DNA of 37,676 bases from Bacteroidota bacterium (lineage in GTDB: Bacteria; Bacteroidota; Bacteroidia; Sphingobacteriales; Sphingobacteriaceae). Below, in pieces: positions 9,455 to 33,656 of this stretch. The stretch lies in NCBI GenBank assembly GCA_016868395.1, contig VGGW01000004.1, positions 1-37,676 on the forward strand, read 5' to 3'. A model generated the notes under the pieces. The model worked only from the letters and a program-made list of their open reading frames with translations, did no database searches and was not told the DNA's origin. A program made the position numbers and the translations under genes. How positions within the stretch are numbered: the stretch's first letter is position 1; each line of letters begins with the position of its first letter.

Positions 9455-10753
9455 ATGAAAAACAATCGCAGAGATTTTTTGAAAGTAGCCGGTGTCGGTG
9501 TAGCCGGAATCGGTGTTATGGGCACCGGAATGTTAAGTACGTTAAGCGCATGTAATGAGTCCGCAACCGAAGGGTCTGTTCCACCGGTCACTGATGAGCC
9601 CTTTGACCCCACAAAGCAAAGCATTATTGGATTGTATGGTCCATGGGCGAGTTCACTCATGGAGAATAAGGTCCCTTCCCACTCTTTCAGGAACGCGAAA
9701 TGGCAAAATATAGATCAGTGGAAAGCGGCTGCCAATGAACGTATTCTCGACCGATTGGGCATACCTGAAATCGGGGCTACACCAAAGGTTACCGTTAAGA
9801 AGCAATATGAATACGATGGTTTATATGTTGAAGAACTCAGCTGGCAGTTGCCTTATGGCCGTGCTACCGAGGCCATCTTATTGAAACCTTTGAATGCCAA
9901 AGGGCCATTGCCGGGTATTTTAGGATTCCATGATCATGGAGCGAATAAGTATTTTGGAACCCGGAAAATCACGCGTACTTCGGATCAGCAACATCCGGAT
10001 ATGGTTGAACATCAGAAGAAATATTATAGCGGCTTTGCCTGGGCGAATGAAATTGCCAAAAGAGGCTATGTGGTCCTGGTCGCTGATGCATTCCCTTTTG
10101 CCAGTCGCAGGGTGATGATGGAAGACGTTCCGGCAAAAATGAGAAACGGACTTACCGATAAGGATCCCGAAAACTCTAAAAATATTGTAGCATATAATAC
10201 CTGGGCGGCTGCTCATGAACACATTATGGCCAAATCGCTCTTCTGTGCCGGTACAACCTGGCCGGGGGTTTTCTTTGCTGAAGATCAGAAAGCGCTTGAT
10301 GTGCTCTGTGCTCGTAAAGATGTGAATGCAGATCAGGTGGGTTGTGCCGGCTTATCAGGTGGAGGCATGCGAACCGTATTTATGGGAGGCTTGGATTCCA
10401 GAATTAAGTGTGCAGTTTGCGTTGGGTTCATGACTACCTGGAAAGACCTGATACTGAACAAATCCTTTACCCATACCTGGATGACCTATGTTCCGATTCT
10501 GCCAAATGAAATGGACTTTCCTGAAATTCTTGGCTTGAGAGCTCCACTTCCAACTTTGGTGCTGAACGATTCGGATGACGAGTTATATACCCTTCCGGAA
10601 ATGCAGAATGCAGATAAGATCCTTAAGGATGTCTATGCGAAGGCAAAAGCTGAAGATAAGTATAAGTGCTCCTATTATCCCGGTCCGCATAAGTTTGATA
10701 GCGATATGCAAAAGGAAGCTTTTGAATGGTTTGATAAGTGGTTGAAGGGGTAA
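9455..10753 (+). CDS. Tat-exported lipoprotein alpha/beta hydrolase (dienelactone hydrolase / acetyl-xylan-esterase-like)
   Basis: A 432-residue predicted esterase acting in the envelope. The ATG at 9455 gives a twin-arginine signal (NNRRDFLK) and a lipobox LSAC with Cys33; the frame is open upstream only through a TTG. The catalytic triad of an alpha/beta hydrolase can be proposed: Ser301 in GCAGLSGGG, an Asp in NDSDDELYT (about 372-375) and His412 in YPGPHKFD. A GFHDHG stretch near residue 157 would be the oxyanion region. Such proteins are often involved in carbohydrate ester removal, but the substrate is unknown. Its first 20 bases are almost identical to those of the Tat gene at 13642, hinting at a related role or shared origin of the signal region. 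Confidence 0.75.
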   Translation: MKNNRRDFLKVAGVGVAGIGVMGTGMLSTLSACNESATEGSVPPVTDEPFDPTKQSIIGLYGPWASSLMENKVPSHSFRNAKWQNIDQWKAAANERILDRLGIPEIGATPKVTVKKQYEYDGLYVEELSWQLPYGRATEAILLKPLNAKGPLPGILGFHDHGANKYFGTRKITRTSDQQHPDMVEHQKKYYSGFAWANEIAKRGYVVLVADAFPFASRRVMMEDVPAKMRNGLTDKDPENSKNIVAYNTWAAAHEHIMAKSLFCAGTTWPGVFFAEDQKALDVLCARKDVNADQVGCAGLSGGGMRTVFMGGLDSRIKCAVCVGFMTTWKDLILNKSFTHTWMTYVPILPNEMDFPEILGLRAPLPTLVLNDSDDELYTLPEMQNADKILKDVYAKAKAEDKYKCSYYPGPHKFDSDMQKEAFEWFDKWLKG

Positions 10754-11393: not shown

Positions 11394-12529
11394 TTAAATC
11401 TTAATAAAAATCCTCTTCCTGTACAAGAAATAAATCATCGACCATACCAGAATCAATGCACCTAGTGCTTCCAGCGCGTCATGAAATTGTTCGGGTGCGG
11501 GAGCATACAAACCCGAGAAGATGATCCTGGAGGTATAGGCAAAGTCGATGAAATGATAAGCCAGGTAGATGGTCAGTGAGTTCATACCGATTACCTTGAG
11601 GAAAAATGCCCATTTCTGAAATTTCAGGACATCAATCACAAAATAGAACAGGCTGAGTATTAAAAAGGCCATTCCTGCGGTAAGAAGAATGAAAGAGCTT
11701 GACCAGAGGTGTTTATTGATCGGGAAGTGGAGCCCCAAAAAAGCCCGATACCAATGCCTGCAATTCCTGCCAGTACAAGAGTCTGCAATTTTTTGCCCTA
11801 TTTTCGATCTGAACGCAGAACATCGCCCGCCATGGAGCCCATGACGGTCAGGCAAAGAGCAGGAAGTTGAGTGATTAGTCCGGTTTCATCATAAATTTTT
11901 TGCAGGAGCCTCCCCGGGAGAAAATTTCTATCAATCCAACCAACCAAATTGCCCTCCATCGTTAGGTTTCCCGGGCCATAGCCCGGCACCGGAATGAGGA
12001 AAAGTGCGGCATAATACAGCAACAGAATACCGGCAACCCAAAATAGTCGCTGTTTACCGGAGAAGTTAAGGTAGAGGAGGCAGGCGAAGAATCCGGCGAC
12101 GCCGATACGGCCTAGTACGCTGGCCACCCGTATTTGTTCAGGTTCAAAGAATTTAACCGGTTGGTTTTTATCCAATATTCCAAGGACGATTAAGACCAGC
12201 ATTCGCCAGAAAGCTTTACGATACAATTCGGTTTTCGACAGGCCTTGTTCAATTCCTTTGTTCAGAGAAATGGCCATGGATACCCCGGCGATGAACAAAA
12301 ACAAGGGAAAGATAAAGTCATAAAAAGTAAATCCATTCCATGCAGGATGTTTTAGTTGTTGGGCAATCCAGTCGATCCATGCCAGTCCGGTTTGGTTTTC
12401 AAGCAGCACCAGGAAGGTGCCCCCACCCGAGATGAGTAACATGTCAAAACCTCTTAGGGCATCAATGGATAGGAGTCTCTGTGGTTTAGTGTCAACGGTT
12501 GTATTTGCTGTTTTGGGTTGAGTTTTCAT
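11394..12529 (-). pseudogene. Broken DUF5009 / NagX-like membrane acyltransferase
   Basis: The intact ancestor would be a membrane protein of about 378 residues related to heparan-alpha-glucosaminide N-acetyltransferases and NagX. The N-terminal piece (12529 to 11798, 243 residues) has the typical LSIDALRGFDMLLISGGG opening and TFYDFIFPLFLFIAGVSM. It ends at an in-frame TAG (11798-11800) after LRSDRK. The same frame then continues with KKLQTLVLAGIAGIGIGLFWG, an obvious membrane helix, until about 11733-11742. There a base appears to be lost in the CCCC/AAAAAA run of the plus strand, and the sequence resumes in another frame with LHFPINKHLWSSSF down to the natural end, IYFLYRKRIFIKI. Two separate lesions make decay more likely than one sequencing error. 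It may have acted in amino-sugar use with the neighbouring Tat enzymes. Confidence 0.85.
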
Positions 12530-16765: not shown

Positions 16766-17902
16766 ATGAAAGTAGCATTAATCACGGGTATCACTGGACA
16801 AGATGGGGCTTATTTAACGGAATTCCTTCTGAAGAAGGGCTACATGGTTCATGGAATTAAACGTAGAAGTTCGCAACTGAATACCGACCGTATCGATCAT
16901 TTGTATCAGGATCCGCATGAACAGGGGGTTCGTTTGAAACTACATTATGGTGATCTGACTGATTCAACTAACCTGATTCGCATCATTCAGGAAACTCAGC
17001 CGGATGAGATCTACAATCTGGCTGCAATGAGTCATGTACAAGTGAGTTTTGAGACCCCTGAATACACTGCTAATGCGGATGGATTAGGTACTTTGCGTAT
17101 ACTTGAGGCTGTCAGAATACTTGGTTTAGAAAGAAAGACCAAGATTTATCAGGCATCTACCTCCGAATTATATGGTTTGGTGCAGGAAGTTCCACAAAGC
17201 GAAAAAACCCCATTTTATCCCCGTTCTCCATATGCCGTAGCAAAAATGTATGCTTACTGGATTACGGTCAATTATCGTGAAGCATATAATCTGTTCGCCT
17301 GTAATGGTATTTTATTCAATCATGAAAGTCCGGTTCGGGGTGAAACTTTCGTAACCCGTAAAATTACCCGGGCTGCAGCAAAAATTGCACTTGGCTTACA
17401 GAATTGCTTATACCTTGGAAATCTTTCGGCTCAGCGCGACTGGGGGCATGCCAAAGATTATGTGGAGGCGATGTGGTTGATCCTGCAACAGGAAAAGCCG
17501 GAAGATTTCGTGATTGCAACCGGCGCTACGACTACGGTTCGCGATTTTGTGAAAATGAGCTTTGCCGAACTGGGTATAGAAGTCGAATTCAGTGGGAAGG
17601 ATGAACATGAGAGGGGAGTTATCATTGATATAGACGAAGCTAAAGCTGCAAGCTTAAAGCTGAAAGAGGAAAATCTGAGGCCTGGGACTACTGTGGTCAA
17701 AGTAGATCCAAAGTATTTCAGACCTACTGAAGTGGATTTGTTAATCGGTGATCCAACTAAATCAATGACCAAGTTGAACTGGAAACCGAAATATGACTTG
17801 CCAGCACTCGTAAAAGAAATGGTTTTATCAGATCTCCATTTAATGAAGAAAGATGAATATCTAAAAGATGGTGGATTTAATACGCTGAATTATTTTGAAT
17901 AA
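16766..17902 (+). CDS. gmd: GDP-mannose 4,6-dehydratase
   Basis: Converts GDP-D-mannose to GDP-4-keto-6-deoxymannose, precursor of GDP-fucose, GDP-rhamnose, perosamine and related sugars. The 378-residue protein has the NADP-binding [10 protein letters not shown] (residues 8-17), [15 protein letters not shown] (33-47), the catalytic residues Thr132, Glu134 and the Tyr156-x3-Lys160 pair in STSELYG and SPYAVAK, and [24 protein letters not shown]. No GDP-fucose synthase, reductase or aminotransferase specific for this product is adjacent, so the final GDP sugar cannot be named from this window. Confidence 0.95.
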
Positions 17903-18084: not shown

Positions 18085-20610
18085 ATGAAAATCAATAAAA
18101 TATTCAGCCTCTGCGTATTGATATTCTTTGTTGCTTTAACCTCACCCGTTTTAGCACAGGTAAACCCCCAAAACCTGAACAATATCCGCGTAGATGAACT
18201 GAGTGATGATCAGGTTAGGGCTTTTATGCGTCAGGCCGGGGCCAGTGGAATGGGTGATGCCCAGTTGGAGCAAATGGCTCAGGCAAGGGGAATGCGGCCG
18301 GAAGAAGTCAAGAAATTAAGAGAGCGTGTCGATAAGCTTAAAAAAGAAGATAAAAAGCAGGGTGGAGGATCAGATCCGAACAAAGTTCAAGCGAAGAAGG
18401 GAACAGAAGACAGAGAAATGAACTTTGATCAGGAAAGTGATAGCACTGATGTTCAAAAAGATCCCGAAACCGAAGCAGAAAAGGTATTCAATGAACTTCG
18501 CTCTAAAATATTTGGTGCCGATATATTTAAAAACTCTAAGCTAACGTTTGAGCCTAACTTAAATATTGCTACGCCAAAAAATTATGTCATCGGACCGAAT
18601 GATGAGCTCCTGATTGACCTATACGGAAATTCGGAAGCTTCCTATAATCTGAAGGTGAGTCCGGAAGGAACGATTAAAATTGAATACGTCGGGGTAGTAC
18701 CTGTCGGGGGACTAACGGTAGAGGCTGCCACTTCAAGGATCAGATCCCGCATGTCAGCTGTTTATGCCGGTTTGCGCAGCGGGAGTACGAAATTGAATGT
18801 AGCTGTGGGTAATATCCGGAGCATCAAGGTGATTCTGACCGGCGAAATTGTGAAACCGGGAACCTATACTTTGCCATCTCTGGCAAATGTTTTTAATGCG
18901 CTCTATTCTTCCGGCGGACCGACAGAAAGGGGTTCTTTCCGAAACATTGAATTGATCAGAGCGGGGAAAAAGATTGCCCTTCTGGATATTTATGATTTCC
19001 TGATGAAGGGTCAGCTGTCTGATGAGGTAAGATTGCAGGATCAGGATATCATTCGTGTTCCGGTGTATCAGTCGCGTATTGAAATTGTTGGAGAAGTGAA
19101 ACGCCCCGGAATATTTGAATTAAGAAGCGGAGAAACCTTGACCGATCTCCTGAATTTTGCCGGCGATTTTACTGAAAATGCCTACCGAGCCAGAGTGAAA
19201 GTGTTAAAGAATACCGATACCGAACGTAAAATAGCCGATATCAGTTCCGCTCAGTTCACGGGGTATCAGCCGAATACCGGAGATAAGTATTTTGTGGACA
19301 GGGTATTGGAAAGATTTGTAAACCGGGTACAGATTCAGGGTGCGGTATTCAGACCTGGAGCTTATGAATTGGAATCAGGCATGAAACTTTCTCAATTAAT
19401 CCGTAAGGCGGAGGGCTTAAAAGAGGATGCTTTTATGTCCAGAGGCTATATCACTCGTCTAAAATCAGATAATCAAACTCAAATGATTTCTTTTGATTTA
19501 GGGGCAATCATTTCGGCCAAAACACCTGATATCAACTTACAAAGAGAAGATATCATCAGCATTTCCTCCATCTTTGATTTACAGGAAGAGTTTAAGGTCA
19601 GCATCGATGGAGAAGTAAGAGAGCCCGGTGAATTTGACTATGCGCAGAACATGACACTCGAAGAGTTGATCATCCAGGCGGGTGGATTCTTAGAAAGCGC
19701 GAGTCCGCAGCGTGTTGAAATCTCCAGACGCGTCAAATCCTCCGATCAAAGTTCAGAGAAAGCCCAAACCGCCGAGGTGTTTCAAATCAATGTGGAAAAA
19801 GACTTGAACCTATCAGTCCCTAAGTTTGAGCTGCAGCCTTTTGACATCGTCTCGGTTCGTAGCTCCATTGGGTATGAAATTCAACGACAGGTTAAAATTG
19901 AGGGTGAAGTACTTTATCCCGGCATGTACACGATCAGCAATAAGAATGAACGCATTTCCGATTTAGTAAATCGTGCCGGGGGCTTAACCGCATTGGCCTA
20001 TACCAAGGGTGCTTCGCTAAAGCGAGAAGGGGCAATGAAACTCAGAGGTTTGGATAAAGATGATGCCAAAGCCCAGGCCGCCTTAGCCGAAGAAGAGAAA
20101 TTGAAGGTGAAGAAGCTACAGCGTTTGCAAGAAAGCGCTTTGGATTCAACGGCCACGGTAAAAGAAGAAGAAATTCTTAAAAATGTTTATGTGGGAATCG
20201 ATTTAGAGAAAATATTATTGGCACCCAAAACTGCTGCCGACTTAATTTTAGAGGAAGGGGATGTATTGCGAATCCCGAAAGAATTGCAAACCGTGAAGGT
20301 GAATGGGGAAGTGCTCTATCCGGTAACGACCAGCTATACCAAAGGAAAAGCCTTTAAATACTATGTTTCACAGGGTGGCGGCTTCTCGGAACGTTCTATG
20401 CGTAAACGTGCTTATGTCATTTATGCGAATGGTGCGGTGAAAAGTACCATTAAGGTGCTTTTATTTAATAAATACCCGAGCATCGAGCCCGGAGCGGAGG
20501 TCTTTATCCCTAAGAAAGAATCAAAGAGACCGGTAAGTGCAGGCGAAATTGTTGGAATTTCAAGTGCATTGGCTTCGACGGCGGTGATTATTTTAAATTT
20601 GGTTAAATAA
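18085..20610 (+). CDS. Polysaccharide export outer-membrane protein with multiple SLBB domains (Wza-like)
   Basis: An 841-residue exported protein, much longer than E. coli Wza, of the multi-SLBB form common in Bacteroidota. A signal peptide (MKINKIFSLCVLIFFVALTSPVLAQ) is followed by a charged linker rich in Lys, Asp and Glu, and the polysaccharide-export domain starts near residue 166 (YVIGPNDELLIDLYG). Six SLBB-like repeats begin near residues 246, 331, 414, 504, 602 and 737, each with a GEVxxPGxY or similar core. A terminal hydrophobic stretch (ISSALASTAVIILNLVK) ends the protein. It would form the outer-membrane exit channel for the capsule. Its stop overlaps the truncated wzz start, showing the original wza-wzz operon order. 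Confidence 0.9.
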   Translation: MKINKIFSLCVLIFFVALTSPVLAQVNPQNLNNIRVDELSDDQVRAFMRQAGASGMGDAQLEQMAQARGMRPEEVKKLRERVDKLKKEDKKQGGGSDPNKVQAKKGTEDREMNFDQESDSTDVQKDPETEAEKVFNELRSKIFGADIFKNSKLTFEPNLNIATPKNYVIGPNDELLIDLYGNSEASYNLKVSPEGTIKIEYVGVVPVGGLTVEAATSRIRSRMSAVYAGLRSGSTKLNVAVGNIRSIKVILTGEIVKPGTYTLPSLANVFNALYSSGGPTERGSFRNIELIRAGKKIALLDIYDFLMKGQLSDEVRLQDQDIIRVPVYQSRIEIVGEVKRPGIFELRSGETLTDLLNFAGDFTENAYRARVKVLKNTDTERKIADISSAQFTGYQPNTGDKYFVDRVLERFVNRVQIQGAVFRPGAYELESGMKLSQLIRKAEGLKEDAFMSRGYITRLKSDNQTQMISFDLGAIISAKTPDINLQREDIISISSIFDLQEEFKVSIDGEVREPGEFDYAQNMTLEELIIQAGGFLESASPQRVEISRRVKSSDQSSEKAQTAEVFQINVEKDLNLSVPKFELQPFDIVSVRSSIGYEIQRQVKIEGEVLYPGMYTISNKNERISDLVNRAGGLTALAYTKGASLKREGAMKLRGLDKDDAKAQAALAEEEKLKVKKLQRLQESALDSTATVKEEEILKNVYVGIDLEKILLAPKTAADLILEEGDVLRIPKELQTVKVNGEVLYPVTTSYTKGKAFKYYVSQGGGFSERSMRKRAYVIYANGAVKSTIKVLLFNKYPSIEPGAEVFIPKKESKRPVSAGEIVGISSALASTAVIILNLVK

Positions 20611-20933
20611 TGAGTACGAATAATCAGACAAACCATCCGAATAATGCCTCAGATGTTATCAGCTCTGTTCATGATGATGAAATTTCATTGAAGGAACTGA
20701 TCCTGAAGGTAAAGGAGTGGTGGCTTTTTTTGCTCAGTAAATGGAAATTGATTTTGGGCGTCGCATTTATGGGTGCGCTGTTAGGATTGGCCTATGCCTG
20801 GAATACCAAACCTAAATACAAAGCAGAATTTTCTTTTGTTTTAGAGGATGAAAAAGGCGGTGGCGGTTTAAGTGGCGCATTAGGTTTGGCGAGCCAGTTT
20901 GGTTTGAATATTGGAGGCGGTGAACTTGGATAA
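20610..20933 (+). pseudogene. Truncated Wzz chain-length determinant, N-terminal stub
   Basis: The frame encodes only 107 residues: a soluble N-terminus, LKELILKVKEWWLFLLSKWK, one membrane helix (about residues 43-64) and the start of the periplasmic Wzz domain ending GLASQFGLNIGGGELG. The complete homologue encoded at 21441-22652 continues after the equivalent GGGE with more than 200 further residues. Here the sequence instead passes directly into an SLBB gene fragment in another frame. It overlaps the preceding SLBB stop by one base, so it is the original partner of that gene, cut by recombination. It could still make a small membrane peptide, but not a functional Wzz. Confidence 0.85.
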
Positions 20934-20934
20934 A

Positions 20935-21438
20935 ATGGACACATTTCAGTGGTTAGAGAAAAGTGCAAATGTTAATACTTTTATATATTTAAAGGAAGAG
21001 TTATTAAAAAATGTCCATATGGGAATTAAGCTGGATAAGATTATTGAAAATCCGGGTACTCCATCTGATCTGATTCTGGAGGAAGGTGATGTTTTAAGAA
21101 TACCTAAACAATTACAAACTGTGAAAGTTAATGGAGAAATATCATATCCGGTTACTACTATTTTTAGTCAGGGGGAAGGGTTTAAGCACTATATTTCGCA
21201 AGGAGGAGGTTTTTCCAACAAATCTTTGAAAAGGCGATCTTATGTAATTTACGCGAATGGCTCTGTGAAAAGTACCTCCAAATTGTTCTTTTTCAATAAT
21301 TATCCTTTAATAGAGCCTGGTGCAGAGCTTTTTGTTCCTCAGAAAGAAGATAAGAGACCATTATCTGCTGCGGAGATTGTAGGTGTTTCAAGTGGATTGG
21401 CATCATTAGATGTAATTATATTAAACCTGGTTAAATAG
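20935..21438 (+). pseudogene. 3' fragment of a second SLBB export gene
   Basis: The frame aligns without a gap to the last 160 or so residues of the 841-residue export protein, with roughly 100 of the last 145 positions identical. Shared parts include DLILEEGDVLRIPK, LQTVKVNGE, YVIYANG, IEPGAE and VIILNLVK. It has no signal peptide and holds only the final SLBB unit and the terminal hydrophobic segment. Similarity to the intact gene persists upstream to about 20925 in the same frame, before the ATG at 20935, so the fragment begins at a recombination joint. The intact copy is the likely working exporter. Its stop lies two bases before the complete wzz start, the same order as in an undisturbed wza-wzz operon. 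Confidence 0.85.
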
Positions 21439-22786: not shown

Positions 22787-24064
22787 ATGCTTCAAAATAA
22801 TGATATCAAAATTGCTGTGATTGGCTTAGGATACGTGGGCTTGCCATTAGCCGTAGAATTTGGTCGTAAATACAAAACTGTTGGGTTTGATATTAATGAA
22901 ACTCGAATTCAGGAATTAACTGATGGAATAGATAATACACTGGAAGTAGATAACCTATATCTTGAGCAGGTTCTTAAAGATGGTCTATTTTCTGTTACTC
23001 ATAAGAAGGAACAAATTTCAGATTGTAATATTTTTATAGTTACTGTGCCCACACCTACGGATTTAAACAATAGACCAGTATTAATCCCATTAGAAAAAGC
23101 TAGCCAGACAGTTGGCTCCATTTTAAAAAAAGGTGATATTGTTATTTACGAGAGTACAGTATATCCTGGGGTAACTGAAGAGATATGCGTCCCGGTTTTG
23201 GAGAAGGTGAGCGGATTGAAATATAACATTGACTTTCATGTTGGATATAGCCCTGAAAGAATTAATCCTGGTGACAAACAGCATACAGTTACGAAAATTT
23301 TAAAAGTAACATCTGGATCCACGCCGGCTATTGCCGAAAAAGTTGACCAATTATACAATTCTGTCATTACAGCGGGAACGTTCAAAGCTTCCAGTATTAA
23401 AGTAGCAGAAGCTGCTAAAGTAATTGAAAACTCTCAGCGTGATATAAATATTGCTTTTGTGAATGAGCTTTCTAAAATTTTTAATCTACTCGGAATTGAT
23501 ACTAATGATGTTTTAGAAGCTGCATCTACAAAGTGGAATTTTTTAAATTTTAGACCTGGGTTAGTAGGAGGGCATTGTATTGGTGTAGATCCTTACTATC
23601 TAGCACAAAAGGCTCAGGAAGTTGGCTATCATCCTGAAATTATACTTGCGGGCAGACGACTAAATGATCAGATGGGTAAATACGTCGCAACAGAGTTGAT
23701 CAAACTCATGATTAAGAAGGATATTAAAGTGAAAGGGTCAAAGGTTTTGGTATTAGGCTTTACATTTAAAGAAAACTGCCCAGACGTGAGAAATACAAAG
23801 GTGATAGATATAATAGATGAACTAAAATCCTATAACATAAATGTCACTATTACTGATCCGTGGGCTAATCCACAAGAAGTACAGGAACATTATAAAATAA
23901 AGATTTTCAAGGAAACACCGCAGGAAAAGTTTGATGCTGTTATTTTATCTGTCAGTCATACTGCTTTCAGTGCTATAGATATCCCAGGTTTATTAAAAGC
24001 GACATCAGTTGTTTATGATGTGAAGGGCAGTTTATTAAGAAGTCAGGTTGACGGTAGATTATAA
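22787..24064 (+). CDS. UDP-N-acetylhexosamine 6-dehydrogenase (TviB/WbpO-like)
   Basis: Oxidises C6 of a UDP-N-acetylhexosamine (GlcNAc or GalNAc) to the uronic acid with NAD. The 425-residue protein has the NAD fold at [18 protein letters not shown] (residues 9-26), VPTPTD (87-92), [19 protein letters not shown] (153-163), Lys211 in [18 protein letters not shown] and the catalytic Cys264 in [12 protein letters not shown]. The [11 protein letters not shown] and [10 protein letters not shown] forms favour the TviB/WbpO branch over UDP-glucose dehydrogenase. Its stop overlaps the next gene's start by one base, coupling it with a TviC-like epimerase as in Vi and WbpO/WbpP loci. The 134 bases before it show nothing distinctive. 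Confidence 0.88.
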
Positions 24065-25038
24065 TGGATAAGCAGATAAAATTATTAATTACCGGAGGTG
24101 CTGGTTTTATAGGCTCGAATCTTGTTGAAAAATTTCTTCAAGATTCGCGTATTTCTCTTGTGCGTGTTGTGGATGATCTCTCCAATGGAAACTATTCTAA
24201 CATAGAGGAGTTCATTGGTAATCCGAGGTTTGAATTTATAAAGGCAGATATATGTGATTATCAAGTTTGTCTTGAAGTCACTAAGGATATTGATAAGGTT
24301 TCCCATCAGGCAGCTTTGGGATCAGTAACACGCTCAATAGAAAATCCTGTGCCTACTACTGAGGTGAATATTTTGGGTACCGTAAATTTGATGCATGCAT
24401 GTCACATCAACAAGGTTGAAAGAATAATTCTGGCTTGTTCGTCTTCAACTTATGGTGATAGCAAGGAACTGCCCAAAATAGAGAACAGGATCGGTGCACC
24501 ATTGAGTCCGTACGCTGTTACAAAATTAGCTGTCGAGGTGTTTGCGGATGTTTTCGCTAAGATTTATGGCTTAAACTATATCGGCTTACGATACTTTAAT
24601 ATATTCGGTCCCAAACAAAACTTGTTAAATCCATATGCAGCTGTTATCCCCCTTTTCTGTAAGGCATTTAATGAAAATGTGGAGCCATTGATCAATGGTG
24701 ACGGTGAAGCCAGTAGGGATTTTACTCATGTTAAGAACGTAATGCACGCTAATGATCTGGCTTTGTTTACTGATGATCCTAAGGCGATCAACGAAATTTA
24801 TAACGTTGCATGTGGGGATCAGATAAGTTTAAATCAAATGATCCTAATGCTGAAAGAGATTACTGGTAAAAATATTAGTCCAAAGTACGGTCCCGAAAGA
24901 TTTGGTGATGTTAAACATTCAAAAGCTGATATTTCTAAAATCAAAGAGCTTTTAGGTTACACAGTTAAATTGCCTTTTTACGAAGGGCTGAAGGAGACTT
25001 ACTACTGGTATATTGAACAGCAATTTAATGAAAAGTAG
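24064..25038 (+). CDS. UDP-N-acetylhexosamine 4-epimerase (TviC/WbpP-like SDR)
   Basis: An extended short-chain dehydrogenase/reductase of 324 residues. TGGAGFIGSNL (10-20) binds NAD; SSSTYG (126-131) and the Tyr150-x3-Lys154 pair form the active site. RYFNIFGPKQ and NGDGEASRDFTHV are typical of UDP-HexNAc 4-epimerases. HQAALGSVTRSIENP (81-95) corresponds to the WbpP motif HxAAxGSVPRSI. With the dehydrogenase before it the product would be a UDP-HexNAc uronic acid, probably UDP-GalNAcA. The ATG overlaps the upstream TAA by one base. Confidence 0.85.
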   Translation: MDKQIKLLITGGAGFIGSNLVEKFLQDSRISLVRVVDDLSNGNYSNIEEFIGNPRFEFIKADICDYQVCLEVTKDIDKVSHQAALGSVTRSIENPVPTTEVNILGTVNLMHACHINKVERIILACSSSTYGDSKELPKIENRIGAPLSPYAVTKLAVEVFADVFAKIYGLNYIGLRYFNIFGPKQNLLNPYAAVIPLFCKAFNENVEPLINGDGEASRDFTHVKNVMHANDLALFTDDPKAINEIYNVACGDQISLNQMILMLKEITGKNISPKYGPERFGDVKHSKADISKIKELLGYTVKLPFYEGLKETYYWYIEQQFNEK

Positions 25039-25046
25039 TTATTAAT

Positions 25047-25736
25047 ATGTTGGGTGTAATACAGGCCAGAATGTCTTCAAAGCGGTTTAGAGGAAAAATG
25101 CTAACAGACTTGGAGGGTGTTACAATCCTGGAAAGAGTTGTGAGGCAGCTTAATAAGGCTAAAAATATAACAAAAGTTGTAGTTGGTACTTCTGTTGAAG
25201 AATCTGATAATGAAATTCAAGCTTTTTGTGAAAGCAAGGGTATTTCCTATTATAGAGGTCCGCTGGAAGATGTAGCTTTAAGGTTTATTGAAATATTAAA
25301 AATGGAAAAGCCTGATGCATTTGTCAGGATTTCGGGTGATAGCCCAACGATAGATCCACAAATAATCGATCATGCTACAGATACTTATCGCAATGGAAAT
25401 TTCGATTTGGTAACCAATGTTTTCCCGCGGACGTTCCCAATGGGGCAGTCTGTCGAAGTATTGTCATCACAGAAATATTTAGACACATACGAATGTTTCA
25501 CTGAAGATTATCATTTTGAACATGTTACAAAATATTATTACGAAAATCAAGGAAAATTTAGCATCAAAAATTTTGAAAGCCCTGTCAATTATGCAAGCGT
25601 CAATTTATGTGTTGATACTCCTGGCGACCTCAAAATGATGGTAAAGATCCTTAAATTTTGTAAAAATGATTCACAGGATTTCAAGCATCTGGCAGAAGCA
25701 TATTTACATTTAAACAATTTATCGGAAGTTGAATAA
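25047..25736 (+). CDS. SpsF-like cytidylyltransferase-family protein
   Basis: A 229-residue nucleotidyltransferase-fold protein. It opens with IQARMSSKRFRGKML (residues 5-19), corresponding to the IIQARMGSTRLPGKVL motif of SpsF and KdsB-like enzymes that activate acidic sugars with CTP. The usual Pro before GK is Arg here. VRISGDSPTIDPQIID (about 94-109) supplies the conserved acidic residues for metal binding. Next to a NeuB-family gene it probably activates the sugar acid as the CMP form. It may instead act on another sugar phosphate; the substrate is not shown. Confidence 0.75.
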   Translation: MLGVIQARMSSKRFRGKMLTDLEGVTILERVVRQLNKAKNITKVVVGTSVEESDNEIQAFCESKGISYYRGPLEDVALRFIEILKMEKPDAFVRISGDSPTIDPQIIDHATDTYRNGNFDLVTNVFPRTFPMGQSVEVLSSQKYLDTYECFTEDYHFEHVTKYYYENQGKFSIKNFESPVNYASVNLCVDTPGDLKMMVKILKFCKNDSQDFKHLAEAYLHLNNLSEVE

Positions 25737-26742
25737 ATCAAAATTGAAAGTTGGAGTAATAGGATTGGGTGTTGGTGAAAGGCATGCCGATGTTTATGCC
25801 GCTGATTCGCGATGTGAATTAGTTTCTATTTGTGACCTTAATCCTGAAAAACTGGAGAGTGTCGGACAGAAATATAATTCTTCAGTTTTAACCACGGATG
25901 CAAGAGATATTCTTACAAATAGTTCGATTGATCTGGTATCCATTGCATCTTTTGATAATTTTCATTACGAACAGATTTTGCTTGCAATTGAAAATGACAA
26001 ACATATATTTGTTGAAAAGCCTTTATGCCTGCATGATAGCGAATTTGAACAAATTAGCATGTCGTTAAAAGACAAGCCAAACATTAAAATATCCTCAAAT
26101 CTAGTGCTAAGGACAGCACCACATTTTTTAAAAGTTAAGGAGAAGATCGATTCAGGATATTTTGGAAAATTATATTATTTTGAAGGAGACTATAACTACG
26201 GAAGGATTCAGAAGATAATTTCAAGTTGGCGAGGCCAGATATCATTTTATTCAGTGACACATGGTGGTGCTATACACTTAATTGATCTTATATTATGGTT
26301 GTCACAGGAAAAAATAACAGAAGCTATTGCAGTAGGCAATAAAATCAGTACAGCTGATTCAGAATTCAAATATCCTGATATGGTGACTGCTTTGTTGAAA
26401 TTCAGTAATGGTATGACTGCAAAGATTGCAGCGAATTTTGGATGCATGATGCCTCATCATCACGGTTTGTCGGTATTTGGATCAAAAGCATCATACATTA
26501 AATCATTTGCGACAGAGAAATACTATACATCAAGAGATTCAACTCTCATGCCAGAGGAGTTTACCTACGAGGAGAAGTTTCGAAAGGACGATATTTTGAA
26601 GTCTTTTGTGTCTTCGATAATAGAGGGCTCTGAGCCGTTAGTATCTTTATCAGACGTTTTTAATGCGATGTCGGTGTCACTTGCAATTGAACGATCTTTA
26701 AAATCTTTAAATTGGGAAAAAGTATCTTATTTAAATCATTAA
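25729..26742 (+). CDS. Gfo/Idh/MocA-family oxidoreductase
   Basis: A cytoplasmic NAD(P)-dependent sugar oxidoreductase of 337 residues. It has an N-terminal Rossmann domain (KVGVIGLGVGERHADVYA, 7-24), the family's EKP motif (VEKPLC, 95-100), and the central-domain catalytic HGGAIHLIDLILWL stretch (178-191) with His183 and Asp186. There is no ATG near the domain start: translation must begin at TTG 25729, inside the preceding gene's end, or at TTG 25744. It has no export signal, unlike the GH109-like protein at 13642. Just before a DegT aminotransferase, it probably makes the keto sugar that is then aminated. Confidence 0.85.
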   Translation: MNKSKLKVGVIGLGVGERHADVYAADSRCELVSICDLNPEKLESVGQKYNSSVLTTDARDILTNSSIDLVSIASFDNFHYEQILLAIENDKHIFVEKPLCLHDSEFEQISMSLKDKPNIKISSNLVLRTAPHFLKVKEKIDSGYFGKLYYFEGDYNYGRIQKIISSWRGQISFYSVTHGGAIHLIDLILWLSQEKITEAIAVGNKISTADSEFKYPDMVTALLKFSNGMTAKIAANFGCMMPHHHGLSVFGSKASYIKSFATEKYYTSRDSTLMPEEFTYEEKFRKDDILKSFVSSIIEGSEPLVSLSDVFNAMSVSLAIERSLKSLNWEKVSYLNH

Positions 26743-26752
26743 ACTATAGAAT

Positions 26753-27904
26753 ATGAATATACCTTTTGGGGTACCTATGATAGGGCCAGAAGAAAGAAAT
26801 GCAGTAGCTGAAGTATTGGCAGGACCAATCCTGGTACACGGACCTAAAGCAACTGATTTTGAAAGGGCATTTGCAGAATTTACAAAAGCTCCGCATGCTA
26901 TTAGCGTTTCCTCATGTACAGCGGGGATGCATTTAATCTATTTCACTTTGGGATTCGGACCTGGTGATGAGGTGATCGTACCTGCACAAACCCACGTGGC
27001 AACTGCTCATGCAGTTGAATTGACAGGAGCAAAAGCAGTTTTTGTCGAGGCTGAGACGGAGACCGGAAATATTGATATCGATAAAATAGAGGCTGCTATT
27101 ACATCTAAAACGAAAGCAATAGCAGTTGTACATTATTTAGGAGTACCTGTAGATATGCCGCGTGTAAAGGCCATTGCAGATAAACATAGTTTGTTTCTTC
27201 TCGAAGACTGTGCCCTGTCACCAGGTGCATCAGTAGACGGCATACACACTGGCCTTCATGGTGATGCGGGTGTATTCTCATTCTATCCGGTAAAGCATAT
27301 TACTACTGCTGAAGGAGGTATGATCATATTAAAAGATTCTGAGTTGGCAGCTAAATTAAAACTCAGAAAGGCATTTGGTGTAGACCGCACACATGGTGAA
27401 CGAAAAGTGCCGGGAGTTTACGATACTGTTGTATTAGGATTTAACTACCGGATGAGTGAATTACACGCTGCAATAGGCATTGAGCAAATTAAAAAGTTGC
27501 CAGACTTTTTAGCAAAAAGATTGGCAAATCATCAAGAATTATCAAGAAATTTAGCTAATGTAGATGGTTTGAATGTATTGCCCGCGCCGGTTAATGATAG
27601 ATTTACAAGTTGTCACTATTGTCTCTCTGTTATTCTGGATCCTACTTTGGCAGCAAGAAGGCCTGAGATTATGGATGAACTAACGAAAGCTGGAGTCGGA
27701 TCAAGTGTTTACTATCCTCAACCAGTTCCCCGTATGACATATTACAAGGAGAAATATGGCTATGATGAGACACTTTATCCTTATGCCACAATGTTCAGTG
27801 ATCAAACTATCGCGCTTCCAGTTGGCCCTCATTTGAATGCAAACGATATGAAAACGATAGCAGATACATTAATTAAAATCATAAAAAACATTAATAATGG
27901 GTAA
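26753..27904 (+). CDS. DegT/DnrJ/EryC1/StrS-family sugar aminotransferase
   Basis: A PLP-dependent enzyme of 383 residues that would transfer an amino group from glutamate or glutamine to a keto sugar. The PLP-lysine is Lys181 in SFYPVKHITTAEGGM, a retained Lys that favours transamination over the dehydratase branch. Asp152 in LEDCALSPGA contacts the pyridine nitrogen, and Asn in GFNYRMSELHAAIG (about 225-238) matches the conserved NYRM. It lies 10 bases after the oxidoreductase gene and overlaps the next SDR gene by 8 bases. Confidence 0.9.
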   Translation: MNIPFGVPMIGPEERNAVAEVLAGPILVHGPKATDFERAFAEFTKAPHAISVSSCTAGMHLIYFTLGFGPGDEVIVPAQTHVATAHAVELTGAKAVFVEAETETGNIDIDKIEAAITSKTKAIAVVHYLGVPVDMPRVKAIADKHSLFLLEDCALSPGASVDGIHTGLHGDAGVFSFYPVKHITTAEGGMIILKDSELAAKLKLRKAFGVDRTHGERKVPGVYDTVVLGFNYRMSELHAAIGIEQIKKLPDFLAKRLANHQELSRNLANVDGLNVLPAPVNDRFTSCHYCLSVILDPTLAARRPEIMDELTKAGVGSSVYYPQPVPRMTYYKEKYGYDETLYPYATMFSDQTIALPVGPHLNANDMKTIADTLIKIIKNINNG

Positions 27905-28937
27905 TATACCAATCAAAAATCGTCGCGTTTTAATTATTGGCGGCGGTGGCTTTATCGGCCATAATTTGGCTCTACATTTAAAAAGTTTAGAGGCTGAAGT
28001 AACTATAATTGATGGCCTTGAGGTTAATAATCTGACCTCTGTTTTAGGTAATTCTGATAATTTGCCCTATCCTCATTTATCTTACACTGTACTTAATGAG
28101 CGTCTCGATCTTTTGAGAAAATCAGGTATCCCTCTTTTTGTGCAGGATGCCAGAGATTATCATGCATTATCACATCTGATTAATAAAATTGATCCTCAAG
28201 TAATTGTACATTTGGCAGCTGTCTCTCATGCAAACCGTTCGAATAAAGATCCATATTCAACTTTTGATCATAGCCTCCGTACACTTGAGAATGCACTAGA
28301 TAATGCAAAAGATCGAGTTGAGCATTTTATTTACCTCTCGTCAAGCATGGTCTACGGCCATTTCAAAAATGATCAGGTTGATGAATCAACTATTTGCGAA
28401 CCTCTTGGAATATATGGTGCATTAAAATATTCTGGTGAAAAAATGGTAATAGCATACAACCAGGTCTTCAATCTTCCGTATACCATCATTAGGCCGTCTG
28501 CACTATATGGTGAAAGATGTATCAGCAGAAGGGTTGGGCAAATTTTTATAGAGAATGCTCTATTTGGAAATGAAATCACCATCAATGGTGATGGATCAGA
28601 CGGACTTGATTTTACCTATATCCAGGATTTAGTGAATGGATTAACAAATGTGATCACTAGTGAGGGATCTAAAAATCAGATATTCAATTTAACCTATGGA
28701 TCAGCCAGAAGTATATCGGATATGATTGATATTTTAAGAGGTTACTTCCCAAAAATATCTGTTAAAAGTATCGCTAAAGACGCTTTGATGCCGGATCGTG
28801 GAACACTTTCAGTAGACAAGGCAAGAGATCTGATAGGTTATAATCCAACATGGTCATTGGATCAAGGATATCCTAAATATATTGAATGGTATATGGATCT
28901 ATTTAATCGGAATCCTGAACTTGCTAATAAAAAATAG
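27897..28937 (+). CDS. NAD-dependent epimerase/dehydratase (extended SDR)
   Basis: A 346-residue sugar-modifying SDR. GGGGFIGHNL (15-24) binds the dinucleotide; SSSMVYG and the YGALK form of the Tyr-x3-Lys pair make the active site; NGDGSDGLDFTYIQDLV is the usual substrate-domain motif. VHLAAVSHANRSNKDPYST replaces the more common HLAA-x-VG stretch. There is an enlarged segment after strand 2 (about 40-85, with NSDNLPYPHLSYTVLNERLDLL). Epimerase, dehydratase and reductase activities cannot be told apart by sequence. Its stop overlaps the next GTG start by one base. Confidence 0.8.
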   Translation: MGNIPIKNRRVLIIGGGGFIGHNLALHLKSLEAEVTIIDGLEVNNLTSVLGNSDNLPYPHLSYTVLNERLDLLRKSGIPLFVQDARDYHALSHLINKIDPQVIVHLAAVSHANRSNKDPYSTFDHSLRTLENALDNAKDRVEHFIYLSSSMVYGHFKNDQVDESTICEPLGIYGALKYSGEKMVIAYNQVFNLPYTIIRPSALYGERCISRRVGQIFIENALFGNEITINGDGSDGLDFTYIQDLVNGLTNVITSEGSKNQIFNLTYGSARSISDMIDILRGYFPKISVKSIAKDALMPDRGTLSVDKARDLIGYNPTWSLDQGYPKYIEWYMDLFNRNPELANKK

Positions 28938-29635
28938 TGACTAAGGTGGTAATTCAGAACGATGCCTGGCTAACGGGATTGATAGGTTGTGATTCATACC
29001 ATCTTACAGGTCAATTGGAGAATTTAGAACCGGACTTAACTTTCGAGCCAAAATCTTTCATTGATGTAAAAATTCCTGTTAACCAGATCGGCCCGTTGAC
29101 CGCTCTCCAGAATTTGGGATTCCGTCTGATAGACACAAATGTTCAGCTTTTAAAGACTGCAGGTGAAATGAGGTTGGGTGGGTATGAATGCCGGTTTGCA
29201 TCAGAGCATGATTATGATTCTGTCTGTGATATTGCCGGTTCCTCATTTACCAAAAGTCGCTTCCATTTGGACCCTTTAATAAGTAAAGAGACCGCTGATC
29301 TTGTGAAAAAAGAATGGGCAGGTAATTTCTTTAAAGGTCTACGGGGAAAATGGATGGTTTTGGCCGAGGTGGAGGGTAAAGTAGTTGGGTTCCTTCAATT
29401 GCTTAAAAGATCTGATTCTGCCATCGTCATTGATCTTATTGCCATAGAACCAAATATGCAAGGCAGAGGAATCGCCGGATCGATGATTAGTTTTGCAAAT
29501 AGTGAATGCCTGGAAGCTCCGGGTGATATCATTGTAGGAACCCAAATTTCTAATATTCAGTCACTTGCTTTCTATGTTAAGCATGGCTTCAGAATTATTT
29601 CTGCAGATTATGTGCTGCATTTACATACAAATTAA
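28937..29635 (+). CDS. GNAT N-acetyltransferase, WecD-like
   Basis: A 232-residue acetyltransferase starting at GTG. The first 75 residues look like the N-terminal half seen in dTDP-fucosamine acetyltransferases (WecD), and SSFTKSRFHLDPLISKETADLVKKEW (102-127) resembles the SRF-x2-DP segment of that family. The GNAT acetyl-CoA loop is QGRGIA (175-180) after VIDLIAIEPNM, with the C-terminal SLAFYVKHGFR. It probably acetylates the amino group put on by the DegT enzyme two genes upstream. The one-base overlap with the SDR gene fits co-translation. Confidence 0.82.
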   Translation: MTKVVIQNDAWLTGLIGCDSYHLTGQLENLEPDLTFEPKSFIDVKIPVNQIGPLTALQNLGFRLIDTNVQLLKTAGEMRLGGYECRFASEHDYDSVCDIAGSSFTKSRFHLDPLISKETADLVKKEWAGNFFKGLRGKWMVLAEVEGKVVGFLQLLKRSDSAIVIDLIAIEPNMQGRGIAGSMISFANSECLEAPGDIIVGTQISNIQSLAFYVKHGFRIISADYVLHLHTN

Positions 29636-29647
29636 TAGGTATTCGGA

Positions 29648-30661
29648 ATGTTGATTGAAAGTTATAATACGGAAAAAAAAGTTTTTATAATTGCAGAGAT
29701 TGGCAACAATCACGAGGGTGATTTTGGCCTTGCTCAAGAAATGATTGCCCAGGCTGCACAAGCCGGGGTTGATGCAGTAAAGTTTCAAACAATTATCCCA
29801 GAACTCCTGGTTGATCGAAGTCAGCAGGAAAGAATCACAAGGCTAAAAAAGTTTCAGTTCACGTATGAGCAATTTGAATCATTAGCAAAAATTGCAAAAG
29901 AAAATAAAGTTATCTTTTGCTCTACTCCTTTTGATCTTCAGAGTGCTAATTTTCTCAATGGCATTCAGTCTCTATTTAAAATAGCTTCAGGAGATAATAA
30001 TTTCTTTCCCTTAATTGACCACGTGGCATCATTCTGTAAGCCTATGATCATTTCAACAGGTTTATCGAATATTGATTTATTGAGAAACCTTCATAATCGG
30101 ATTACAAGAATATGGGCTAAAGAAGGTATGAATCCAGGGCTAGCATTCTTACATTGTTTAACAAGTTATCCTACCCCGGTTGACCAGGCCGGACTTTCAT
30201 CCATCTATAAGCTTAGGGAAGAATTTCCAGATTTAGTGATAGGTTATTCTGATCATACTATGGGTATTAACGCCGCATTGTATTCGGTTGTGGCTGGTGC
30301 CAGGATAATTGAGAAACATTTCACAATTGATAAAAACTATTCAGACTTTAGGGATCATCAACTTTCAGCTGACCCAACTGATATGAAAAATCTGGTGGAT
30401 GGCGTACGTGAAATAGAGTCGATGTTTGGAGCTGGCCCTGGAAATGAATCACACTGTGAAAAGGATATGCATGAAGTGGCGCGGCGTTCAATTGCCGCCG
30501 CTGTCGATTTGCCAATTGGAACAATTGTCGAAATGGAGCATCTTACTTGGGTACGCCCCGGCACTGGAATGGCTCCTGGTGAAGAGTCAATTCTGGTTGG
30601 AAAAAGGGTAGTTACAGAAAAATTATCAGGGGAAATTTTCGCTCCCAAGGACGTCATTTGA
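29648..30661 (+). CDS. NeuB-family sugar-acid synthase (sialic / pseudaminic / legionaminic acid synthase type)
   Basis: Condenses phosphoenolpyruvate with a hexosamine-type aldehyde to make a 3-deoxy nonulosonic or related acid. The 337-residue protein has the TIM-barrel signatures FIIAEIGNNHEGD (13-25), AVKFQT (43-48), FCSTPFD, KIASGDNN, ISTGLS, LHCLTSYPTP and GYSDHTMG, then EKHFTIDKN. The C-terminal antifreeze-like SAF domain (about 285-337: RRSIAAAVDLPIGTIVEMEHLTWVRPGTG) is complete. Which sugar it uses cannot be decided: the hydrolysing UDP-sugar 2-epimerase (NeuC/LegG) or PseG that normally feeds such an enzyme is not encoded in the window. Confidence 0.9.
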   Translation: MLIESYNTEKKVFIIAEIGNNHEGDFGLAQEMIAQAAQAGVDAVKFQTIIPELLVDRSQQERITRLKKFQFTYEQFESLAKIAKENKVIFCSTPFDLQSANFLNGIQSLFKIASGDNNFFPLIDHVASFCKPMIISTGLSNIDLLRNLHNRITRIWAKEGMNPGLAFLHCLTSYPTPVDQAGLSSIYKLREEFPDLVIGYSDHTMGINAALYSVVAGARIIEKHFTIDKNYSDFRDHQLSADPTDMKNLVDGVREIESMFGAGPGNESHCEKDMHEVARRSIAAAVDLPIGTIVEMEHLTWVRPGTGMAPGEESILVGKRVVTEKLSGEIFAPKDVI

Positions 30662-30680
30662 TAAATATAAAATTAGGATT

Positions 30681-32513
30681 ATGTGCGGGATTGCCGGCTA
30701 TATAGGTAAAAAGATCATTGAAGATAAAACGATCCAGTTCACTCTTGCTCAAATGAGCAAGCGTGGACCGGATCAGCAGGAGGCAAGGCAATTTAGTTAC
30801 GGTGACTATTCGATTTTCTTACCTCATAGTCGACTTAGTATTATAGATTTGGATTCACGCTCCGATCAGCCTTACACTATTGGTGATTATGTAATAATTT
30901 TCAACGGAGAAATATATAATTACGTTGAGCTCAAGGAGAAGCTGGTAAAAGATGGTGTAGTTTTTCATACTTCCTCAGACACCGAGGTATTACTACAATA
31001 TTTTATCCGTTATGGTGAAAACTGCGTAGAGCATTTTGAGGGAATGTGGGCTTTTGCGATTTACAATACCGTAACGGGTAAAATCTTTTTGTCCAGAGAT
31101 CGCTTCGGGGAAAAGCCACTGTATTATTACTCGGATGATGAAAACGGATTTTATTTTGGATCAGAAGTGAAATTTCTGAGTGCTCTGTCTGGAATCAATT
31201 TTAAGGTTAACAAAAGACAGTTACAGCGATACTTAGGCCAGGGATATAAAGCACTTTATAAGAAAAGTGAAACATTCTTTGAAGATGTTTTCGAGTTAGC
31301 TTCAGGAGAAAACTGTATTATCAGTCCCGGATCTAAGCCCGAATTCAAGAAATATTGGAAACCAATTACTAAAATTAATCATTCGATGACCTTGACCGAG
31401 GCCATTGAAGGGAGCCGTGAGCGCCTGATCAATAGTATGAAGATCAGGCTTCGTGCAGATGTGCCCCTGGCATTTTGTTTAAGCGGCGGCGTAGATTCAG
31501 CGTCATTGGTTTCTATCGCGGCGAAAGTATTTAATTATAACGTAGAAACTTTCTCTATTATTGATTCTGATGATCGGTATAATGAATTGGATAATATACA
31601 GGCTACCATAGACGACACTGGTTGCAAACACACTATGATTAGCCTCTCGCATGATAATTCTTTGGACAGATTACAGGAATTAATTGCTTATCATGATGCT
31701 CCAATAGCCACGACTACGTTTTTTGTACACTCAATGCTGTCAGAGAAAATAAATGAATCAGGGTTCAAGGTGGCTTTTTCAGGTACTTCCGCAGATGAGC
31801 TTTTCACGGGATATTATGATCATTTCCTGTTGCACCTAAATGAAATGCATGATCATCCTGATTATGAAACGTATCTAAACGATTGGTATACACATACGGG
31901 TACATTTGTTAGAAATCCTATACTCAAAAATCCGGATCTATACAGAAAAACTCCCAATTTCAGAGAGCACGTATTTGATAATTCTAAGGAGTTTTGCGGA
32001 TATCTGAAGGGAGATTTTAAGGAGGAATATTCTGAAGCAAACTATACGGATAACATGCTTAGAAACCGAATGTTGAATGAATTATTTCATGAAGCTACAC
32101 CCGTTATCCTGCATGAAGATGATTTAAATTCAATGCTTTATTCAATAGAAAACAGAAGCCCGTTCCTGGATACTGAATTATTTCAGTTCGCCTTCTCTAT
32201 TCCAGCAGAACATTTAATAAAAGACGGCTATGGTAAGTATGTATTGCGCGAGTCTATGGCCGGGATTTTAAATGACCAGGTTCGTCTTGATCGCCGTAAG
32301 AAGGGATTTAATGCCTCCATAAATTCATTGTTTGACTTACAGAATGAGGAAACCAGGGCTTATTTTCTTGATCCTGCGGCATCTATTTTCGAGATAGTAA
32401 AAAGGGAGCCAATTGTTAAGTTATTTGATTTAAACCCGGCACCCAATGAATACAGTAAATTTTTATTCAATTTCATGAATGCCCGCATTTTTCTCGATCA
32501 GCACTCATTATAG
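30681..32513 (+). CDS. AsnB-like glutamine-dependent amidotransferase (asparagine synthase family)
   Basis: A 610-residue protein with an N-terminal glutamine amidotransferase domain, nucleophile Cys2 in MCGIAGYIG and NGEIYNY (75-81), and a C-terminal ATP-pyrophosphatase domain with LSGGVDSASLV (267-277). Such paralogues in polysaccharide loci often amidate sugars instead of aspartate. Here the gene sits nine bases before a WbpG/PseA-like amidotransferase and 19 bases after the NeuB-type synthase, so a role in sugar amidation or as ammonia supplier is likely but unproven. True asparagine synthetase remains possible. Confidence 0.85.
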   Translation: MCGIAGYIGKKIIEDKTIQFTLAQMSKRGPDQQEARQFSYGDYSIFLPHSRLSIIDLDSRSDQPYTIGDYVIIFNGEIYNYVELKEKLVKDGVVFHTSSDTEVLLQYFIRYGENCVEHFEGMWAFAIYNTVTGKIFLSRDRFGEKPLYYYSDDENGFYFGSEVKFLSALSGINFKVNKRQLQRYLGQGYKALYKKSETFFEDVFELASGENCIISPGSKPEFKKYWKPITKINHSMTLTEAIEGSRERLINSMKIRLRADVPLAFCLSGGVDSASLVSIAAKVFNYNVETFSIIDSDDRYNELDNIQATIDDTGCKHTMISLSHDNSLDRLQELIAYHDAPIATTTFFVHSMLSEKINESGFKVAFSGTSADELFTGYYDHFLLHLNEMHDHPDYETYLNDWYTHTGTFVRNPILKNPDLYRKTPNFREHVFDNSKEFCGYLKGDFKEEYSEANYTDNMLRNRMLNELFHEATPVILHEDDLNSMLYSIENRSPFLDTELFQFAFSIPAEHLIKDGYGKYVLRESMAGILNDQVRLDRRKKGFNASINSLFDLQNEETRAYFLDPAASIFEIVKREPIVKLFDLNPAPNEYSKFLFNFMNARIFLDQHSL

Positions 32514-32522
32514 AACACTTAA

Positions 32523-33656
32523 GTGAAATACTGTACAAATTGTATACTGCCAGATTCGCGCCCTGGAATCATTATTGAAGCAAATGGTGTTTGTAATGCC
32601 TGCAATAATTTTTCCGTTACTAAAAGCACAATAGATTTTGTCAAAAGAGAGGAACAGTTCCTTGAGGTTGTCAGAAAAGCCAAATTAAAAAGTACCGGGT
32701 ACGATTGTATAATTCCCGTTAGTGGTGGAAAAGATAGTACCTGGCAAGTGGTGAGGTGCCTTGAATATGGCTTAAATATTCTTGCAGTAACATGGAAAAC
32801 TCCAGGAAGAACGGGAATCGGGCAGGAAAATCTGGATAATCTGGTTTCCTTAGGAGTTGATCATATTGACTATACCATAAGCCCTAAGGTCGAAAGAAAG
32901 TTTATGTTAAAAGCATTTGAGAAATATGGGTCAACAGCTATTCCAATGCATATGGCAATGTTTGCCATACCTCCAAAAATCGCAGCTAGCTTTGGTATAC
33001 CCCTGATAGTTTGGGGCGAGAATTCAGCTTTTGAATATGGTACCGATGACGAGGCCTTAACTGGATTCAAAATAGATAGTAATTGGCTCAAGAAATTCGG
33101 AGTTACGAACGGTACTAGTGCCGAAGATTGGATATCTGAGGATCTAACTAAAAAGGAACTTACACCTTACTTCTCATTAAATGATAAACAAATCGATGAA
33201 GCAGGGATTAACGCAATTTTTCTTGGATATTATTTTAATTGGGACGTTGAGACAAGCTTGGCTGTAGCTAAGGATAATGGATTCAAGGTTTCAGACAAAG
33301 CTAAAACAGGAATCTATAATTATGCTGATATTGATGATGATTTTATATCGATTCATCATTTTCTTAAGTGGTATAAATTCGGAATAACCCGATCGTTTGA
33401 TAATTTATCTCTTGAAATTCGAAACAAAAGGATTAGTCGCGAAGAGGCGGTTAACAGGCTTGCCTCATTAGGTGATGAGACACCCTATGAGGACATTCGG
33501 AAGTTCTGTAAATTTGTCGGAATAACCGAGCGTAGATTCTTTGAAATATCAGAAAAATTCAGGAATGAAGAGATTTGGAAAAAGATTGATGGGGTTTGGG
33601 GAATTCCAAATTACATAAATGAAGAACAGGTATGGACGAATCCAATAAATAGTTGA
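32523..33656 (+). CDS. N-acetyl sugar amidotransferase (WbpG/PseA family)
   Basis: A 377-residue PP-loop ATPase of the family that converts an N-acetyl group into an acetamidino group on surface sugars. The protein starts at GTG with MKYCTNCILPDSRPGI. Two CxxC pairs (Cys4/Cys7 and Cys24/Cys27) form the zinc site, and PVSGGKDSTWQ is the pyrophosphate loop. TWKTPGRTGIGQENLDNL and PLIVWGENSAFEYG are typical. In Pseudomonas, WbpG works with HisH/HisF-like partners that supply ammonia; none is encoded here, and the adjacent AsnB-like protein could serve instead. Confidence 0.88.
   Translation: MKYCTNCILPDSRPGIIIEANGVCNACNNFSVTKSTIDFVKREEQFLEVVRKAKLKSTGYDCIIPVSGGKDSTWQVVRCLEYGLNILAVTWKTPGRTGIGQENLDNLVSLGVDHIDYTISPKVERKFMLKAFEKYGSTAIPMHMAMFAIPPKIAASFGIPLIVWGENSAFEYGTDDEALTGFKIDSNWLKKFGVTNGTSAEDWISEDLTKKELTPYFSLNDKQIDEAGINAIFLGYYFNWDVETSLAVAKDNGFKVSDKAKTGIYNYADIDDDFISIHHFLKWYKFGITRSFDNLSLEIRNKRISREEAVNRLASLGDETPYEDIRKFCKFVGITERRFFEISEKFRNEEIWKKIDGVWGIPNYINEEQVWTNPINS

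Follow-up and report, generated by a model that had tools for sequence, protein, structure and literature searches.

How does an export gene come to be followed by the front of one co-polymerase gene, the back end of another export gene, and a complete co-polymerase gene? This arrangement lies in an environmental Daejeonella genome (Sphingobacteriaceae) that was rebuilt from mixed DNA and comprises 320 contigs (2.99 Mb, 96.8% complete, 3.4% estimated contamination); the stretch analyzed here, which we call the window, is one whole contig (C4) of 37,676 bp. The order gmd-wza-wzz, followed by variable sugar genes, is conserved in all relatives examined, and the UDP-sugar dehydrogenase/epimerase genes that follow wzz are also found in G003, G010, G019, G018, and G031. 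The Daejeonella relatives that we compared were Daejeonella sp. H1SJ63 (G004), JGW-45 (G003), DJPMRC01 (a MAG; G001), isolate C18 (a MAG; G019), and the MAGs G010 and G002. We refer to wza sequences like that of the nearest relative, G004 (with G019 and G010), as type A and to those like G001 and G002 as type B. By its domains (PF02563, PF10531, and PF22461, all above the cutoff) and by the adjacent PCP/wzz gene, wza1 is a Wza-type OPX protein gene, with a predicted role in polysaccharide export across the outer membrane.

Table 1. Features of the gmd-wza-wzz region, in window coordinates
Feature	Position	Strand	Basis or comment
gmd (GDP-mannose 4,6-dehydratase), conserved left neighbor of wza	16766-17902	+	PF16363; 94.7% identity to G004
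wza1, whole gene, open frame, 841 aa	18085-20610	+	Poly_export and SLBB domains
wza1 5' half, codon 1 to ~415, type A (resident type)	18085-19326	+	Groups with G004 (99/97); max-chi2
wza1 3' half, codon ~416 to 841, type B (imported in the preferred reading)	19327-20610	+	Groups with G001/G002 (100/99)
wzz1 stub, first ~105 wzz codons, 107-aa ORF, ends 2 codons past joint	20610-20933	+	PF02706 N-terminal match only
Illegitimate wzz/wza joint	About 20,919-20,932 (~20,925)	+	Both sides aligned with relatives; no shared word longer than 7 to 9 nt
Orphan wza 3' fragment, type A (last ~167 codons)	From ~20932 (possible start ATG at 20935) to 21438	+	Alignment to wza genes
wzz2, intact polysaccharide co-polymerase gene, 403 aa	21441-22652	+	Up to about 55% to relatives' wza-adjacent wzz
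UDP-sugar dehydrogenase and epimerase, start of variable sugar genes	22787-25038	+	Pfam

The start codon of wzz1 overlaps the stop codon of wza1 in the TAATG manner, and its frame passes TM1, runs up to GLASQFGLNIGGGE, and stops at 20933; the ORF ends in GLASQFGLNIGGGELG before the stop codon, with the wzz portion cut at GLNIGGGE. The possible start of the orphan fragment lies 1 nt past this stop. The fragment aligns without gaps with residues 674 to 841 of wza1 (64% identity over 167 columns), and the count of about 98 of 142 identical residues after the linker is close to the 100 of 145 reported in the first-pass annotation. That annotation had also described a truncated wzz joined to a wza 3' end at about 20925 to 20935 and, after the fragment, a complete, divergent wzz in normal spacing, and we find both: wzz2 starts 2 nt past the fragment stop, where the wza-wzz gap in relatives is mostly -1 to +44 nt. 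All along wza1-wzz1-fragment-wzz2, the ORFs abut one another (TAATG, TAAaATG, and TAGtaATG). The wza-wzz gap of G001 (from about 9381) is AT-rich and 367 nt long, versus -1 to 44 nt in the other relatives. Relics of wza or wzz were sought in the wza-wzz gaps of the other genomes, including this long one, and none were found, nor did a literature search for wza/wzz remnants at capsule loci find any. In a scan of 399 family genomes, no other stand-alone wza 3' fragment occurred among the matches listed, which were all but the weakest; every other listed match to the wza 3' end sits within a long ORF, with one frameshifted case (G026). The fragment is therefore not a conserved separate gene in the relatives checked.

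At the joint, the end of wzz1 shares no word longer than 7 nt with the wza linkers of relatives, and the start of the fragment shares none longer than 9 nt with their wzz genes, both figures having been measured on parent-like tracts from relatives rather than on the actual parents. An ordinary homologous crossover therefore does not account for the joint, and an assembly error at a shared k-mer would explain it only with difficulty.

Two adjacent and alignable wza 3' ends could also be what remains of an in-place wza-wzz duplication that later diverged and decayed, a reading to which we give virtually no weight because the fragment and wza1 group with different relatives. Their pairing was rejected by AU tests on residues 26 to 120 (P = 1e-6), on residues 26 to 167 (P = 2e-8), and on DNA (P = 9e-9), and a local tandem duplication was rejected on the same grounds, the copies not being each other's closest relatives. 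Derivation of the pieces from a second, divergent wza-wzz pair in the same genome (C117:1-8926) was rejected as well, since that pair shows only 38% identity to wza1. A similar second pair is present in most Daejeonella genomes searched.

The fragment is 80% identical to G019 and, over residues 26 to 120, 92.6% identical to G004. Within type A, G004 and G019/G010 are about equally near to it (23 versus 20 informative sites), and its last 47 residues are 89% identical to G019 but only 49% identical to G004. In the G004 Wza, the final ~45 residues (near 10360-10501) group with G003 (97/99) instead of with the relatives to which the protein is otherwise close. It is likely, from this grouping, that the G004 tail is the one that changed, which would make it a second case of wza 3'-end exchange.

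The SLBB gene to the left had been taken for the intact old gene; it is instead a mosaic, with a break that had been missed. In 60-codon windows, the nearest relative of wza1 is G004 up to codon 420 and G001 beyond, and the best max-chi2 break falls between 19326 and 19330, at codon 416 (chi2 of 206.6, versus a permutation maximum of 14). The tree of codons 1 to 415 joins the window to G004 and that of codons 416 to 665 joins it to G001/G002 (support values in Table 1). For codons 1 to 415, a grouping of the window with G001 was rejected (AU P = 0.0003), although a grouping with G001 and G002 together was not formally rejected (P = 0.06); for codons 416 to 665, a grouping with G004 was rejected (P = 5e-9). 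Codons 121 to 415 clearly favor G004 over G019/G010 (121 versus 37 informative sites). Among nine close wza genes, the codon-416 break is by far the strongest (the next best, at codon 26 of G010, has a chi2 of 80), and its location beside the scar is therefore unlikely to be due to chance. The switch is in frame and lies inside a conserved wza stretch; in the AlphaFold model of wza1 (mean pLDDT, 65), codon 416 is near the edge of an SLBB repeat and the joint is in a low-confidence linker. The type-B 3' half runs unbroken, with the native TAATG spacing, into the truncated wzz1. Judged by these groupings, wza1 is a chimera of a type-A 5' half and a type-B 3' half, despite its intact frame, and with the fragment being type A again, the order along the locus is A-B-A.

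A genome of 320 contigs with 3.4% estimated contamination might hold a contig chimerically assembled from two strains or species that occur together, and a crossover-like switch in a conserved gene, such as that at codon 416, could be a misjoin. We consider this improbable, however, as the joint at 20,925 shares a few bases at most, too few for a shared-k-mer join, and both the wza1 reading frame and the wza-wzz spacing are intact.

Because the fragment is of the organism's own type A and the type-B half is continuous with wzz1, one small insertion explains both breakpoints without replacement of the locus. The A-B-A order is shown, as are the codon-416 break and the nonhomologous right joint; from these we infer a single homology-facilitated illegitimate recombination (HFIR) that placed ~1.6 kb of type-B DNA in a resident type-A wza gene, an account to which we assign a somewhat better than even chance. 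The incoming DNA (window about 19,327-20,925) would have carried type-B wza codons 416 to 841, the TAATG overlap, and wzz codons 1 to 105. Its left end would have been anchored by homology inside wza, near codon 416, and its right end joined illegitimately, wzz1 to wza, at the cost of about 0.77 kb of resident sequence (about 257 type-A codons, ~416 to 672). The event would have left a Wza that is chimeric but in frame, a wzz1 stub that is dead, and an orphaned Wza tail; the resident wzz2 and the capsule genes to its right would have remained in place, and a Wza whose N-terminal part is the cell's own and whose C-terminal part is imported would work with Wzz2. Such a pairing is plausible, since relatives combine wza and wzz types freely (G001 and G002 are 83 to 86% identical in wza and 40% identical in wzz). 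Consistent with HFIR, the block has recipient-type flanks on both sides, one homologous end, and one illegitimate end at which recipient DNA was lost. The pS values relative to G004 (0.565 for fragment residues 26 to 120, 0.588 for wza codons 121 to 415, and 0.56 to 0.71 for flanking genes, with two left-flank genes at 0.56) fit descent of the fragment from the same resident gene, although with synonymous sites near saturation the test is weak, and the fragment could derive from another type-A strain. The wzz1 stub is 43% identical to the wzz of G001 and, over the N-terminal part, 64% identical to its best relative, and the true donor would thus be unsampled. The codon-416 break could be older than the joint. 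ComEC- and DprA-family genes occur in the genome, but both families are also present in most control genomes and the ComEC-family match (C116:3809-4612) contains an in-frame TGA, so that natural competence is only possible.

The same A-B-A order could have arisen in two steps, with a type-B capsule locus first replacing the resident one through a crossover in wza near codon 416 and a type-A locus (wza tail, wzz2, and sugar genes) arriving later by way of an illegitimate joint within wzz1. The first-pass reading was close to this, and we regard the two-step history as possible though doubtful. Capsule loci are often exchanged in other bacteria (PMC13043062), the sugar genes and wzz vary between all relatives, and the fragment is not clearly nearest to G004; on the other hand, two events are invoked where one suffices, and the second donor must match the wza type of the recipient's own 5' half. 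Fusion of two side-by-side export loci by a deletion running from the interior of wzz1 to the interior of a second wza, with loss of the sugar genes between them, we think unlikely. It leaves the codon-416 break unexplained, and tandem wza-wzz pairs were seen in none of the relatives examined; although the joint looks as a deletion end would and many relatives do have two wza-wzz pairs, the second pair in such genomes is a distant paralogue (38%) located elsewhere. Locus replacement and deletion between neighboring loci, the two origins proposed at first, are possible, but each needs an extra event compared with one small insertion. What stands of the first-pass annotation is the recombination scar itself, with its nonhomologous joint and with duplication rejected; the polarity assigned to it is doubtful, as the supposedly foreign fragment belongs to type A, the species' own. 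The channel gene taken as old is chimeric, with a type-B 3' half, and wzz2 would be resident under HFIR.

Base composition had also been cited for a foreign right side. The region to the right is indeed more AT-rich, with GC falling at the joint from about 0.44 to 0.34-0.37, but the intact wza gene of G004 shows the same drop inside one gene (0.428 to 0.351, versus 0.444 to 0.343 for the window pieces), and most relatives are alike. We therefore rejected GC content and codon use as signs of foreignness: such a drop is a general feature of the type-A wza 3' end and of the sugar locus. Nor do wzz and the sugar genes indicate an origin, as they vary too much among relatives to be assigned. GC content and the pattern of an intact gene versus a fragment can mislead as to which side is donor and which is recipient.

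Over residues 26 to 120, the dN/dS of the fragment is about 0.05, as low as between intact genes, a value that mostly reflects the time before truncation. Its first 25 codons show an excess of amino acid change, and its AlphaFold model has a mean pLDDT of 36. The wzz1 stub and the orphan tail are probably nonfunctional relics. The fragment may still be open because translational coupling into wzz2, which could persist through the abutting stops and starts, survives; the alternative is a recent origin. A further reading, which strikes us as a long shot, is that the orphan tail is alive: coupling from the wzz1 stub would have it translated, and it would be kept open as a ribosome relay into wzz2 or as an export modulator. 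Were this so, OPX proteins would diversify in the Rhs manner, by displacement of the C terminus, with the orphan tails retained under selection.

HFIR is known in pneumococcus, Acinetobacter baylyi, and Pseudomonas stutzeri, where the described products have on average gained 1 kb and lost 1 kb, mostly with 3 to 10 bp of microhomology (PMC3240628). The locus studied here is similar in its one homologous and one illegitimate end, its insert of ~1-2 kb, its recipient loss of ~1 kb, and its scant microhomology, and it differs in that the footprint is seen in a single genome and the common origin of the two ends is deduced. Displacement of a 3' end that leaves the old end as an orphan has been described for Rhs/CDI loci (PMC3150448) and proposed for type VI secretion system (T6SS) effector loci (PMC5361080). 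As in Rhs/CDI C-terminal displacement and T6SS orphan immunity arrays, the 5' part is kept, a new 3' end enters with neighboring DNA, and the old 3' end is orphaned downstream; here, however, the gene encodes an OPX protein, there is no toxin or immunity gene, the neighbor that came in is broken, and the orphaned end is probably a relic. In Klebsiella and pneumococcus, capsule (K/cps) exchange (PMC13043062) likewise changes surface genes by recombination at a variable polysaccharide locus, whereas the HFIR model would swap only ~1.6 kb of edge genes and leave the sugar genes untouched. The protein itself resembles the Wza/OPX family with its Wzz/PCP partner (PMC9601211) in its Poly_export domain, SLBB repeats, and predicted C-terminal helix but is a long multi-SLBB version with a chimeric sequence.

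As a trace of gene exchange, the scar is clear but ordinary: an uncultured bacterium has preserved, at the edge of a surface polysaccharide locus, a fossil that can still be read. An SLBB export protein, it suggests, can have one half exchanged at a time and keep an open frame beside its co-polymerase.

Elsewhere in the window, a frameshift near 11,830 divides an HGSNAT/DUF5009-like acyltransferase gene on the minus strand (11394-12529) into two ORFs that overlap; both halves are in one frame in G004, and the split is either a real pseudogene or a base-call error. Farther right (24064-33656), the sugar genes look like those of a pathway of the nonulosonic acid type and include genes for NeuB, a cytidylyltransferase, a PseC-like aminotransferase, a WecD-like acetyltransferase, and a WbuX amidotransferase.
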